Shown: positions 26,368 through 30,174 of the stretch, piece by piece | Layout: every line of letters begins with the position of its first letter | Numbering within the stretch: position 1 is the stretch's first letter | DNA from: Paenibacillus sp. JNUCC32 | Lineage (GTDB): Bacteria; Bacillota; Bacilli; Paenibacillales; Paenibacillaceae | Assembly: GCF_014863545.1 (NCBI RefSeq) | Contig: NZ_CP062260.1 | Coordinates: 6,877,505 to 6,941,504 of the forward strand | Reading direction: 5' to 3' | DNA: 64,000 nucleotides | The notes under the pieces: generated by a model | What the model saw: the letters and a program-made list of their open reading frames with translations, nothing else | Database searches by the model: none | What the model was told of the DNA's origin: nothing | Program-made: the position numbers and the translations under genes

Positions 26368-28227
26368 ATGTTCGGATTAAAGGCGGATTTTATGCAGAAC
26401 GGCGGAACGATCATGGTGCTGGACCGGGATGAAGGGATCCAGTCAACAGAACTGAATCATGTGCAGCTGGGCATGATCCGTTCTTCGAGAATCCCGCACT
26501 TTTTGAAGCTGCATATGAAAGAAGTCGATTACAAAGTAACCTTGGAATATGATATCACCGGCAAAAAGATGCTGTCTCAGGCATTGAAGAGCGAGCGCAT
26601 GACGTTGACCGAGTACTATGGGCTGCTGCTGCAGATCGCTACCGCATTGGAGGACAGCAGGCTGTATATGCTTCAACCCGAGAATTACATACTTCATGAG
26701 GATTTTCTGTTTGTTGAAGGCTCCCTGCATCTTGGCACATTATATTTAACCTATGTTCCCCTTGCCGTTAATGAGACAAGCAGTAACCGTCTCCCTGTAA
26801 CGCTTAAGGAACTTATGACAAGGCTTCTCTTATCGGTCTCGGAGCTGAAAGGAGGAGGGATACAAGCATTGATGACCTTCTGCAGTGAACAGAGCTTCAG
26901 TTTGCCGGGACTTAAGCGGCTTGTCATTGAACTGCTTGCAGGAGAAGATGGTGAAAGCGATCAAGCAGGAACGCAAGCGAAGATGGCAGTGCCTGCACAT
27001 GTGAATGAAAGATTGCCCTATACCGATAATCCCTCAAACAGCAGCGTCTCCAGGACTGCCTTCTCATTTGCAGAGCCGGCTCACAGCCGGAGTGCGGCAT
27101 TGCAGACGGAGAATGACGGCAACACGGATAAACAGAGTTTAATTCGAAGCCTGACGGAACGTACCAACGAGATGTTTGGGAAAAGCGGCCGAAACGAAGA
27201 AGGTAATTCTCACGCCGGTCGCACCCCATCAGGTCTTCCTGCGTGGTCATCTGGCACAGATGATTCAAGTCTTGATGAAGCGGAGCATGGCAGGTCTTCG
27301 CCGGTTCGGACTTATATTTTGCTAGGATGTTTGCTCGCCGCAGCGGGAGCTTGGAGAATGTTGTACATGAATCAACCGGGTCCGCTGATGTTGGGGCTAT
27401 CGGTAGGGATTACGATTCTGCTTGCCGTGATCGCTTGGCTCGGCTACACGGGCAAACTCCGGCTGCTCCCACGGAGAACGGAGGATTGGTCCGGTTCATT
27501 GCCCGTGTTTGAATCCACAGAGCTGAGTCCGCAAGAGCATGCCAAGTGGAAGTCCGTCCCGCGTTTTGAGGCAGATCCCTTATCAGGTCTTCTTACGGGA
27601 AGACAGGCAGCGGACTCAGGGAAAGCGGCAGAAGCAGAGCTTGGTGAGGGGAATGAGCATTGGAGATGGCAGGTTCCTAAATCTCCATTTAACCTTGAGC
27701 GGGATCAGCCTTCAGCGGGATCTTCCGTACAGTCTTTTCGGGACCAGGCTTTTTCGCGTTCTCCTAACGCCGGGGCAGGAGATTCTTATAGGGAAGAAGG
27801 GGATTATTATGCCCAGCTGTCCCAACGGACGGAGGTGCTTTCGTCCTCTGGTGGTGGGGGAGCTACCGTGCTGTTAAGTCCAGAGACCGCCGTTCGTCCG
27901 CCCGGACACCATTCGGCCAGGGACTATCTTGAGCTTACCGAACCGAATGCAGCCGTCCCGAAGCGAATTGAATTGCATCAGCCCCATTTCATCATCGGCC
28001 GCTCTCCCGACGTCGCCCAATTTGTAGCTGAAGGTGTGGGAACTTCACGGGCACATGTCGAGCTCTCTCGCGAAAGCGGTGGATACGTCCTGAAGGATCT
28101 GGGTTCCAGAAACGGTACAATGTTGAAGGGAGAATCCATGGTGCCTTATAAAGAATACCCTTTGATGGAAGGGGATGCCTTTATTATTGCCGGATGGACG
28201 TTTACCCTGCGCAGGGGGGGATATTAA
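26368..28227 (+). CDS. FHA-domain membrane protein with N-terminal DUF6382-like domain
   Basis: This 619-residue protein starts at ATG 26368 after GGAGGCGG. Residues 1 to about 190 resemble the DUF6382 domain found N-terminal to FHA in Bacillota pilus loci. A low-complexity Ser-rich linker leads to two transmembrane helices near residues 312-355 (TYILLGCLLAAAGAWRMLYM and MLGLSVGITILLAVIAWLGY). Another linker follows, and a C-terminal FHA domain holds IIGRSPDVAQF, SRAHVELS and DLGSRNGTMLKG. FHA domains bind phosphothreonine, so this protein may tie pilus assembly to Ser/Thr kinase signalling. Both tails are probably cytoplasmic. Confidence 0.82.
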   Translation: MFGLKADFMQNGGTIMVLDRDEGIQSTELNHVQLGMIRSSRIPHFLKLHMKEVDYKVTLEYDITGKKMLSQALKSERMTLTEYYGLLLQIATALEDSRLYMLQPENYILHEDFLFVEGSLHLGTLYLTYVPLAVNETSSNRLPVTLKELMTRLLLSVSELKGGGIQALMTFCSEQSFSLPGLKRLVIELLAGEDGESDQAGTQAKMAVPAHVNERLPYTDNPSNSSVSRTAFSFAEPAHSRSAALQTENDGNTDKQSLIRSLTERTNEMFGKSGRNEEGNSHAGRTPSGLPAWSSGTDDSSLDEAEHGRSSPVRTYILLGCLLAAAGAWRMLYMNQPGPLMLGLSVGITILLAVIAWLGYTGKLRLLPRRTEDWSGSLPVFESTELSPQEHAKWKSVPRFEADPLSGLLTGRQAADSGKAAEAELGEGNEHWRWQVPKSPFNLERDQPSAGSSVQSFRDQAFSRSPNAGAGDSYREEGDYYAQLSQRTEVLSSSGGGGATVLLSPETAVRPPGHHSARDYLELTEPNAAVPKRIELHQPHFIIGRSPDVAQFVAEGVGTSRAHVELSRESGGYVLKDLGSRNGTMLKGESMVPYKEYPLMEGDAFIIAGWTFTLRRGGY

Positions 28228-28315
28228 TACGGGATTATTATAGTAGAAGTAAGATTTGCGAAGCCATTATTCTATGAAGTTTAGAGGGAATTCGGATTAT
28301 TGCAGAAAACCAAAG

Positions 28316-28358
28316 GTGTACCCTAATTTTTAGAGGGGCCTTTGGTTTTTTATTTTTA
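28316..28358 (+). terminator. Intrinsic terminator at the end of the tad locus
   Basis: AAAACCAAAGG pairs with CCTTTGGTTTT around a loop of about 20 bases, followed by a T-rich run. It separates the pilus locus from the AT-rich island. Confidence 0.8.
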
Positions 28359-28387: not shown

Positions 28388-28463
28388 AATTATGGTAAAA
28401 TGTACCGATTAACTATAATTTTAAGGCGAGATAATAATACTTTAATGAGAGGACAAGAGGATT

Positions 28464-28859
28464 TTGCATAGGAAAATTAAAAGCAACTTTTTTTACTTGG
28501 CTGCAGGAATATATCTAGGTATTGCAATAGTAGCATTTATTCCATGGATTCAGATTGACGCAAAAATTACAGCATATACAAGTATCATCGCATTATTTAT
28601 AACAATTTATGACTCATCTAAGGTTGGCCTAAAAATAGCTGCTACAGAAGGGGATTCACGCAAGCAAAGAATCCAGTATGTTTTTACGTTAGTTATGAAA
28701 GCCTTCATGATAATTTCGCCATTTGCCCTCTTGTACTGGATTAATTATGAGGACGATGAAGCAGTCATAACGAGAATAAGCAATTACGTGACTTTTGCTG
28801 CGATTGGGGTTGTATTTTTTACTAGAGGCATGGAATTAAAAAAATCAAGTGAACGATAA
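28464..28859 (+). CDS. Small integral membrane protein, unknown
   Basis: This 131-residue protein probably starts at TTG 28464 after an AAGAGG site. Four hydrophobic segments are visible: FFYLAAGIYLGIAIVAFIPWI, AYTSIIALFITIY, FTLVMKAFMIISPFALLYWI and ISNYVTFAAIGVVFFT. Charged loops lie between, including EGDSRKQR. I do not recognise the family. Codon use and base composition are markedly more AT-rich than in neighbouring genes, as for the next two genes. Its position 54 bases before the Thg1-like gene suggests cotranscription, but no direct functional link is visible. Confidence 0.6.
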   Translation: MHRKIKSNFFYLAAGIYLGIAIVAFIPWIQIDAKITAYTSIIALFITIYDSSKVGLKIAATEGDSRKQRIQYVFTLVMKAFMIISPFALLYWINYEDDEAVITRISNYVTFAAIGVVFFTRGMELKKSSER

Positions 28860-28913
28860 CTCAAATTAAATCCAGTATTGCAATTCTTTTATCAATCATT
28901 AAAAGGAGCAAAC

Positions 28914-29654
28914 ATGAAAAAGGACGACTTTGGCAACCGAATGAAGGGTTACGAAAACATTTTTAGACAAACGCTTCCTCAGAGACTTCCAGTGATTATT
29001 CGTATAGATGGTTCACATTTCCATACATTTACTCGTGGAATGATAAAACCGTTTGATGAGGTACTAATTCAGGCTTTTTGGGAGACGTGTAAATACTTAG
29101 CGCAAAATATTATGGGTTGTAAGTTGATCTACCATCAAAGTGATGAAATATCTATTCTGCTGACCAATTATGATAAGTTAACAACGCAGTCTTGGTTTGA
29201 AAATAATCTACAAAAAATGGTTTCAGTGTCTGCTTCAATGGCTACTGCAAAGTTCAATGAGGTTATACAAAAAGCCTTTCCCGACAAGCCGCTCGCCACA
29301 TTTGATAGCAGAGCTTGGGTACTGCCTCATGATGAGGTAGCGAACTATTTTCTTTGGAGACAGCAGGACGCAACCAAAAACAGCATTTCGATGGTTGCTC
29401 AGGCAAGCTTTCCACATAAGGAGTTACAGGGATTAGATGGAAAGAAACTTCAGGACAAGTTATTTCTCGAAAAAGGTGTAAATTGGAACGATCTGCCTAT
29501 TTGGCAAAAACGCGGAGCGTGCATTACAAAGCAGTACTATAAAAAAGGAGAGGCGCTTCGGAGCAAGTGGGATGTTGATTTTAATACACCGATTTTTAGT
29601 CAGAATAGAGAGTACATAAATCAGTACGTTTATTTATCAAAGGATGAAAAATAA
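28914..29654 (+). CDS. Thg1-like protein (tRNA-His guanylyltransferase family, 3'-5' polymerase)
   Basis: This 246-residue protein starts at ATG 28914 after AAAAGGAGC. It has the Thg1 palm: RIDGSHFHTF with metal ligand D32, and YHQSDEISILL with D77 and E78, matching the RIDG-x-x-FH and QSDE motifs of Thg1. The eukaryotic HINN motif after YFLWRQQD is replaced by ATKNSISMVAQ, as I recall for bacterial Thg1-like proteins. Thg1 adds G to the 5' end of tRNA-His. Bacterial members extend truncated RNA 5' ends in a template-dependent 3'-5' reaction after 5' activation. The next gene overlaps by one base (TAATG) and encodes a polynucleotide-kinase-like protein, suggesting joint RNA 5'-end repair. Base composition is AT-rich, indicating acquisition. 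Confidence 0.9.
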   Translation: MKKDDFGNRMKGYENIFRQTLPQRLPVIIRIDGSHFHTFTRGMIKPFDEVLIQAFWETCKYLAQNIMGCKLIYHQSDEISILLTNYDKLTTQSWFENNLQKMVSVSASMATAKFNEVIQKAFPDKPLATFDSRAWVLPHDEVANYFLWRQQDATKNSISMVAQASFPHKELQGLDGKKLQDKLFLEKGVNWNDLPIWQKRGACITKQYYKKGEALRSKWDVDFNTPIFSQNREYINQYVYLSKDEK

Positions 29655-30097
29655 TGGAGTGTGTCATTTTCATTGGGATTCAAGCTTCTGGAAAATCAAC
29701 ATTTTATAAAGAAAAGTTTTTCAAAACTCATATGAGAATAAACCTTGATATGTTGCGGACAAGGCATCGTGAGAATGTTTTTCTTGAAGCATCAATCAGT
29801 ACTAGTCTGCCGTTTGTAATTGATAATACGAATCCAACAATGGATGAACGAAAAAAATATATCGAATTAGGTAAAAAACATAGGTATAAGATCGTGGGTT
29901 ATTACTTTGAACCGAATTATGATTTATCTTATGCACGTAACGAACAGAGACAAGGAAAAGATAAGATTCCTGAGGTTGGAATCAAAAGTACACTGAAGAT
30001 GTTGCAAACTCCTTACTATGATGAGGGTTTTGATGAATTGTATTTGGTGCGGTCACTTAATGAAGGATTTGAAGTCGAAGAAATGAAAATGAAATGA
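29654..30097 (+). CDS. P-loop polynucleotide-kinase-like ATPase partner of the Thg1-like protein
   Basis: This 147-residue protein starts at ATG 29654, sharing one base with the upstream stop, so translation is coupled. It has Walker A GIQASGKST (8-16) and RINLDMLRTR with D32 in the place of the general base of T4 Pnkp-type kinases. DNTNPT (57-62) follows, then a lid-like segment YARNEQRQGKDKIP with conserved Arg residues and Pro. This is the compact AAA_33/Pnkp kinase pattern. Such enzymes phosphorylate RNA or DNA 5'-OH ends or small molecules. A 5'-kinase would convert a 5'-OH from an RNA cut into the 5'-phosphate a Thg1-like enzyme must activate. The pairing is seen; the pathway is inferred. 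Confidence 0.82.
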   Translation: MECVIFIGIQASGKSTFYKEKFFKTHMRINLDMLRTRHRENVFLEASISTSLPFVIDNTNPTMDERKKYIELGKKHRYKIVGYYFEPNYDLSYARNEQRQGKDKIPEVGIKSTLKMLQTPYYDEGFDELYLVRSLNEGFEVEEMKMK

Positions 30098-30174
30098 GTC
30101 TTTCAACTTTTTGAATATATCCCCCATAGATAAAGGTTTATTACATAGGATTTAATTTCTGGAGATGAAGGAGA

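Follow-up and report, generated by a model that had tools for sequence, protein, structure and literature searches.

A Thg1-like 3'-5' polymerase and a predicted polynucleotide kinase encoded by overlapping genes in Paenibacillus: a probable pair for RNA 5'-end repair

Introduction

A genomic neighbourhood of Thg1 and polynucleotide kinase (PNK) genes was described in 2010, reportedly by Anantharaman, Iyer and Aravind. In the part of that paper available to us, a PNK-family kinase is the most persistent bacterial neighbour of Thg1, MACRO and RNA ligase genes occur in subsets, and a step order is proposed in which the kinase makes the 5'-phosphate for Thg1 in RNA repair (PMC2904730). The Thg1-like protein (TLP) of B. 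thuringiensis, BtTLP, repairs 5'-truncated tRNAs in vitro, the 5' end being activated by ATP or GTP (PMC3701042). The end that TLPs activate is a 5'-monophosphate, from which they extend the RNA by templated addition, by as many as 13 nucleotides in one case, and a 2019 review regarded the in-cell substrates of bacterial Thg1-like enzymes as not settled (PMC6471195). Ends left by metal-independent RNases must be phosphorylated by polynucleotide kinases, and a survey of jumbo phages counts Thg1, RlaP, cRec, KptA and ligases as RNA-repair parts (PMC7824862). Among the titles and abstract openings listed from the open-licence literature, none reported an experimental test of the Thg1-kinase pair.

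Here we analyse such a pair from Paenibacillus sp. JNUCC32. An earlier note on this DNA had read it as a possible tRNA 5'-end repair system, perhaps directed against phages or toxins, with a small membrane protein at its side. Much of that interpretation stands: a TLP-type Thg1 and a PNK-type protein are encoded by overlapping genes, the pair recurs across phyla, and it has an RNA-repair setting. Neither a regular place for the membrane protein nor an anti-phage role is supported.

Materials and methods

The window is the whole stretch of DNA that was analysed, 64,000 nucleotides long. Named genomes were scanned with a query built from four closer Thg1s, because an alignment of eight distant Thg1s held no stretch conserved enough for scanning. 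The best 80 of 408 confirmed loci were analysed, which weights this sample towards sequences closely related to the window. The viral sample was formed in the same way from the best 80 of 584 loci, and the plasmid set comprises 14 of 22 records. The genus sample and the named loci overlap, since L034 and L138 come from the same genome, as do L035 and L173. Neighbourhoods of the resulting 174 loci (80 genome, 80 viral, 14 plasmid) were surveyed with seven family profiles, which are not a complete repair set.

For the Thg1 tree, 152 of the 174 loci and the window gave a protein, the rest failing the frame or motif filter; clustering at 90% left 119 rows, and after thinning of the viral rows from 64 to 27 the final tree had 82. 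The kinase tree has 47 rows; L136-L138, L173 and L212 were left out of it, and no protein fit for use was obtained from L183 and L207.

Results

The open reading frames and coordinates of all three genes given in the earlier note were confirmed from the sequence (Table 1), as was the one-base overlap in TAATG, where the Thg1 stop codon TAA (29652-29654) and the kinase start codon ATG (29654) meet. The mechanical list of open reading frames lets the Thg1 frame open earlier; its likely start is the ATG at 28914, directly 3' of AAAAGGAG, which yields the 246-aa protein.

Table 1. Features of the Thg1-kinase locus in the window
Feature	Coordinates	Strand	Basis
Rho-independent terminator-like hairpin, 5' of the AT-rich island	28304..28351	+	fold energy, U-run
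Stretch absent from relatives	28423..30122	.	blastn against relatives
Small membrane protein gene, neighbour only	28464..28859	+	hydrophobic stretches
Thg1-like protein (TLP), 246 aa, 3'-5' polymerase family	28914..29654	+	PF04446 3.5e-32; phrog_4717 2.7e-114
TAATG, Thg1 stop and kinase start with one base in common	29652..29656	+	sequence
Small P-loop kinase, 147 aa, polynucleotide-kinase fold	29654..30097	+	AAA_33 PF13671 2.1e-11

The genes had been described as an island more AT-rich than its surroundings, and the composition bears this out: GC content falls to 0.363 over 28860-30122, the whole window having 0.527, and only 3 of 1,255 sliding windows match or undercut the value of this stretch. 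The terminator said to precede the island was also recovered, as a hairpin with a U-run (-21.3 kcal/mol, z -3.5, equalled by 0 of 200 shuffles), though it is not among the results of a simple terminator scan of the window. The gene upstream of the hairpin (26368-28227) looks FHA-like by eye, and the other flanking genes were named, also by eye, copper-amine-oxidase-N-like and endonuclease-IV-like.

The palm carboxylates claimed for the Thg1-like protein, D32, D77 and E78, are all present and are invariant across an eight-sequence alignment, so that the PF04446 palm domain carries its three metal-binding residues. In phmmer, BtTLP (PDB 4kgk, also 4kgm) aligns without gaps over 240 residues (4-243, E 4.6e-128) and scores 429 bits, whereas the 5 other PDB sequences matched reach at most 54 bits. 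Judged by sequence, the window Thg1 is closely related to BtTLP and belongs to the TLP type, not to the eukaryotic Thg1s. BtTLP residues R16, R28, K43, D46, K99 and R131 are all retained, with numbering shifted by +2. Differences are found at A42, a main-chain contact, which is I44 in the window protein, and at D6, a guanine contact described as poorly conserved, which is N8 (PMC3701042). Neither a kinase partner nor the genes around the BtTLP gene are taken up in the available part of the BtTLP paper (PMC3701042). The source genome has a single Thg1 match.

The small protein encoded next had been called a compact P-loop kinase with a Pnkp-like aspartate and lid, and the residues agree: G8, G13, K14, S15, D32, R95, N96 and R99 are present, and all of them except S15 are invariant in a 30-row alignment. 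It thus has the Walker A motif, the acidic residue at the acceptor site (D32, aligned with an Asp of PNKP) and the lid arginines of a polynucleotide 5'-kinase, elements whose roles come from work on PNK. Sequence matches to mammalian PNKP and to entries 4gp6/4jst are weak, and the bacter_Pnkp model (TIGR04075) matches in its kinase region only (3.3e-9, 35.5 bits); with a cut-off of 750 bits for that model, we rejected an assignment as three-domain bacterial Pnkp.

An AlphaFold (AF2) model built from 34 sequences has a mean pLDDT of 92.2, and its top Foldseek match is mammalian PNKP (1yj5, TM 0.83). Ranks 1-7, 9 and 12-17 are PNKP or CthPnkp, and ranks 8, 10 and 11 are fungal 'Kinase' entries; PFK-2, gluconokinase, PSTK, PezT/zeta and T4 Pnk follow lower down. 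The modelled fold is thus nearest to PNK kinase domains, and there is good support for assigning the protein as a predicted polynucleotide kinase; we infer that its substrate would be 5'-OH RNA. The kinase domains of PNKP, T4 Pnk and the fungal entries 9d8a/9drz, which we take to be tRNA-ligase kinases, are fused to phosphatase or ligase domains. In contrast, the window kinase stands alone beside Thg1. Likewise, its fold resembles that of the kinase domain in the bacterial Pnkp/Hen1 system, but it is a lone domain of 147 aa that has no phosphatase or ligase domain and has a polymerase as partner.

The earlier note had named adjacency confined to this genome as a result that would speak against it; a search across genomes found the pair kept in several distant groups, and uniqueness to the source genome is rejected. 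Thg1 occurs in 8 of 100 genomes of the genus sample, and in 8/8 the gene that follows it on its strand is the kinase. The kinase occurs in 16/100, and since 8 of these 16 (one of them with a kinase fragment) have no Thg1, it can be kept alone. No synteny with the window flanks was counted for the 7 other genus pairs; the match of L033 to the right-hand gene of the window is a weak one at domain level (25% over 91 residues) and was not counted as synteny. Across Bacillota, Thg1 was found in 3 of 398 sampled genomes, all in the family of the window and all three paired.

Among the named loci (best 80 of 408), the kinase lies within 500 bp of Thg1 at 36/80, always on the same strand. The same-strand adjacency of the 2010 neighbourhood is therefore present at the window and at 36 of these best 80 of 408. 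All 28 loci from Paenibacillaceae and Thermoactinomycetaceae in this best-80-of-408 sample (Paenibacillus, Saccharibacillus, Marininema, Shimazuella and Polycladospora) are paired with the kinase downstream. The order is swapped, kinase upstream, at 6 of the 7 Lentisphaerota/Kiritimatiellota loci among the same best 80 of 408, all except L215. In Lachnospiraceae locus L183 the kinase is upstream as well, and a single Flavobacteriales locus shows the downstream arrangement. No kinase match lies within 2 kb at 44/80 (best 80 of 408), largely gut MAGs; MAG loci L179 and L201, labelled Bacilli, and the Victivallales locus L215 are unpaired. Two of the 14 plasmid loci, from Deinococcus taeanensis and Embleya, are paired in the order kinase then Thg1. 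Among viral loci (best 80 of 584), none has a kinase within 500 bp of Thg1; a match occurs at 0.5-2 kb in 2 and farther away, within 5 kb, in 2. With no kinase within 2 kb at 44 of the 80 named loci and none within 500 bp at the viral loci (best 80 of 584), Thg1 often does without an adjacent kinase. A phage origin of the pair was considered and rejected: the viral sample (best 80 of 584) holds 0/80 such pairs, and 1 phage record matched the kinase. Thg1s of the same family are found in 126 phage records.

On the Thg1 tree of 82 rows, the paired and unpaired states require 6 changes, many forks being weakly supported; accordingly, pairing seems to have formed several times and in both orders. 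On the kinase tree, solo kinases are placed among paired ones with 4 changes, of which the starred branches force only 1. This placement would fit, with weak support, repeated loss of Thg1.

Of the seven families sought, any one lies within 500 bp of Thg1 at 40/80 genome, 4/80 viral and 3/14 plasmid loci, and the nearest match per family and locus is on the strand opposite to Thg1 in 0 cases. At most paired loci, none of the seven profiles sought finds a further repair gene. Hen1 (PF22032, 2.4e-105) and an 861-aa Pnkp, parts of the Pnkp/Hen1 RNA repair system, are directly upstream of Thg1 in L146, and a 76-aa Hen1 piece has a similar position in L150. Hen1 and Pnkp are also upstream of Thg1 on plasmid L047, where the kinase is absent. 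In L160 (Paenibacillus sp. H1-7) the series Hen1-Pnkp-KptA-TatD-RtcB-Thg1-kinase lies on one strand, with Thg1 frameshifted. Pnkp is present in 16 of the 28 Bacilli genomes examined, in one copy each (one a fragment), and lies within 3 kb of Thg1 in 2 cases (L146, L160), where placement at random in 6.5 Mb would give about 0.02. KptA, present in 21/28, is near Thg1 in one (L160); possible KptA/Pnkp links of L154 and L148 were not counted, since no match was obtained for their contigs.

Other partners are found elsewhere. An RNA ligase (PF09414) directly precedes Thg1 in G038/L029, with a gene for a cREC cyclic-phosphate domain further upstream, and an RNA ligase lies 872 bp upstream of Thg1 in L148. 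KptA/Tpt1 follows the kinase in G007/L032. RtcB is 56-63 bp downstream of a kinase-less Thg1 in L176, L196 and L197. In L211 and L210 it lies upstream at a distance of about 2.8-3.7 kb, and three viral loci have it 1.2-2.9 kb from Thg1. RlaP, an RNA repair family of the Pol-beta type, lies within 300 bp of Thg1 on plasmid L054, in L201 and in viral L122, L093 and L078, as well as in L079, an apparent copy of L078; none of these RlaP-adjacent Thg1s has an adjacent kinase. A further 11 loci, among them the Deinococcus plasmid, have RlaP at a greater distance. The source genome has one RNA ligase match and one KptA match, both far from the pair.

The membrane gene had been placed with the pair in one suggested cassette. 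It is carried by 0/80 named Thg1 loci (best 80 of 408), so it is not a regular third part. In the genus sample it occurs in 5/100 genomes, that of the window and four without Thg1, and in none of the 7 other Thg1-bearing genomes. G031 has it at the same site and G028 beside the same right-hand genes, both without the pair. Since the membrane gene occurs without the pair, the unit common to other genomes is Thg1 plus kinase. Even so, three homologues of the membrane protein agree with kinase homologues in the length of the longest contig (60,516; 1,703; 2,556,588), a hint that in some relatives the three genes may occur together.

In blastn comparisons, homology of the left flank ends at 28417-28422 in G069, G070 and G032, and that of the right flank resumes at 30123-30124 in G032 and G024, with other cargo between the flanks; in G062 the two flanking genes are adjacent. 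The cargo found at the same site elsewhere resembles, by eye, a sugar-transport operon, or consists of AT-rich small genes. The window, G069, G070, G024, G032, G051 and G065 have a variable-cargo site between two conserved flanking blocks; in G070 the left flanking gene occurs a second time, next to small genes in an AT-rich array.

Discussion

The reading that we favour, with a probability of about 0.62, is that the Thg1-like reverse polymerase and the predicted PNK-fold kinase jointly restore damaged tRNA 5' ends. We observed the family membership, the gene overlap, the adjacency in both orders across phyla and the repair neighbours on the same strand. Since TLPs activate a 5'-monophosphate, and ends left by metal-independent RNases need a kinase, a kinase acting on 5'-OH ends would supply the step that has to come first. 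Where a metal-independent enzyme has cut the RNA and left a 5'-OH, the kinase would phosphorylate that end; the damage might stem from a toxin, a host tRNase or a phage. Thg1 would then adenylylate or guanylylate this 5'-phosphate and add the missing nucleotides in the 3'-5' direction, copying the other strand of the acceptor stem. The product would be a complete RNA where the 5' end had been trimmed, and otherwise a substrate for a ligase. With a recurrent partnership of Thg1 and an end kinase, and with the series in L160, the role of TLPs in the cell becomes a biochemical question about two small proteins. Several observations weigh against our reading: the solo kinases, the many Thg1s that have no kinase beside them, the lack of further genes of the families sought at most paired loci, the broken Thg1 copies in some pairs, N8 in place of the BtTLP D6, and the poorer matches of the kinase model to PSTK, gluconokinase and PFK-2 folds.

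Neither the pair nor the repair idea is new. The earlier note had inferred repair by the kinase and then Thg1; as far as the available part of the 2010 paper goes, the same functional idea, drawn from conserved adjacency, was published there for Thg1 beside a PNK-family P-loop kinase (PMC2904730). Among the Thg1 neighbours named in that part there is no Hen1, full-length Pnkp, KptA, RtcB or RlaP, and a kinase of viral Thg1 is not touched on (PMC2904730). The neighbour context described here is wider than in that text, and the exchangeable RNA-repair partners of Thg1, including RlaP in some viral contigs, are an addition of the present survey.

The recurring RlaP neighbours, also viral, and the RtcB neighbours suggest that rebuilding of the 5' strand belongs to general RNA repair. 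It is tempting to extend this to a modular repair of gaps, a tentative proposal that we hold to be unlikely, in which bacterial and phage Thg1 would be the part that rebuilds the 5' strand together with exchangeable partners. The small PNK or Hen1-Pnkp would prime the 5'-OH of the 3' tRNA fragment and Thg1 would extend the primed end backwards. In the RlaP versions, the Pol-beta enzyme would extend the other end forwards; RtcB, Pnkp or an RNA ligase would seal the break and KptA would clean the junction. If this were true, RNA with excised nucleotides could be refilled from both sides, beyond re-ligation.

The ligases beside Thg1 can also be read in another way. The pair could serve ligation, the kinase making the 5'-phosphate and Thg1 mainly producing an App or Gpp end, as an intermediate or a cap-like mark, for a ligase or an eraser. 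The RNA ligases of L029 and L148 would fit this idea, as would RtcB beside Thg1 in L160, L176, L196 and L197 and Hen1-Pnkp in L146 and L160. However, neither Pnkp nor RtcB depends on a second enzyme to provide App ends. Although 5' App ligation is named as an option in the available part of the 2010 paper (PMC2904730), nucleotide addition by TLPs is templated and reaches 13 in the case cited above (PMC6471195), and we consider that ligation as the main purpose is improbable.

It is doubtful, too, that the kinase has a substrate other than RNA ends and that its adjacency to Thg1 reflects shared mobility or regulation only. Such an activity would explain the 8/100 genus genomes with a kinase (one a fragment) and no Thg1, and it could draw on the lower-ranked fold matches to PSTK, gluconokinase and PFK-2 and on the Zeta_toxin-like kinase gene just upstream in L210. 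Yet polynucleotide kinases lead the matches by fold as well as by sequence, phyla far apart share the pair in one order or the other, and the solo kinases stand among paired ones on the tree, as they would after loss of Thg1, a placement that is weakly supported. As to L210 itself, a second kinase-like gene lies immediately upstream of kinase and Thg1 in this Lentisphaerae locus (L210:4022-4657) and in L211 (L211:4892-5527), the Zeta_toxin match being found in L210 only.

We regard as very unlikely that the pair is a defence cassette in the strict sense, kept for reversing attacks by phages or toxins during infection or competition. Its patchy presence and the AT-rich island at a variable-cargo site would suit such a role, as would the finding that some of the 17 cargo proteins of four related loci match PADLOC models, e.g. 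LmuA, RTasMBL and PtuB; for Pnkp-Hen1 complexes, a role in repairing RNA against ribotoxins is described (PMC4411300). Nevertheless, the three window proteins match 0 families of PADLOC-DB 2.0.0 at E up to 1, which gives no support to the anti-phage role suggested earlier, and other cargo at the site resembles, by eye, a sugar-transport operon. Finally, addition of G-1 to tRNA-His as in eukaryotes, suggested by the family name and by the capacity of TLPs in vitro (PMC6471195), is highly implausible and is rejected as the need for Thg1, since the tRNA-His gene found (in a survey of 30 of 67 tRNA places with flanks, so that a second such gene may lie elsewhere) encodes its own G-1 opposite C73, and Thg1 is present in only 8/100 genus genomes.

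A frameshifted Thg1 beside an open kinase was seen in G088/L173 (also L035), L160 and L165. In three Paenibacillus loci the kinase is followed by a small HD-like gene that begins 25 bp downstream of it (L142:7197-7622, L143:7197-7622 and L148:7200-7520), and the copy in L142 has a partial match to the RelA/SpoT model TIGR00691 (7.3e-13).
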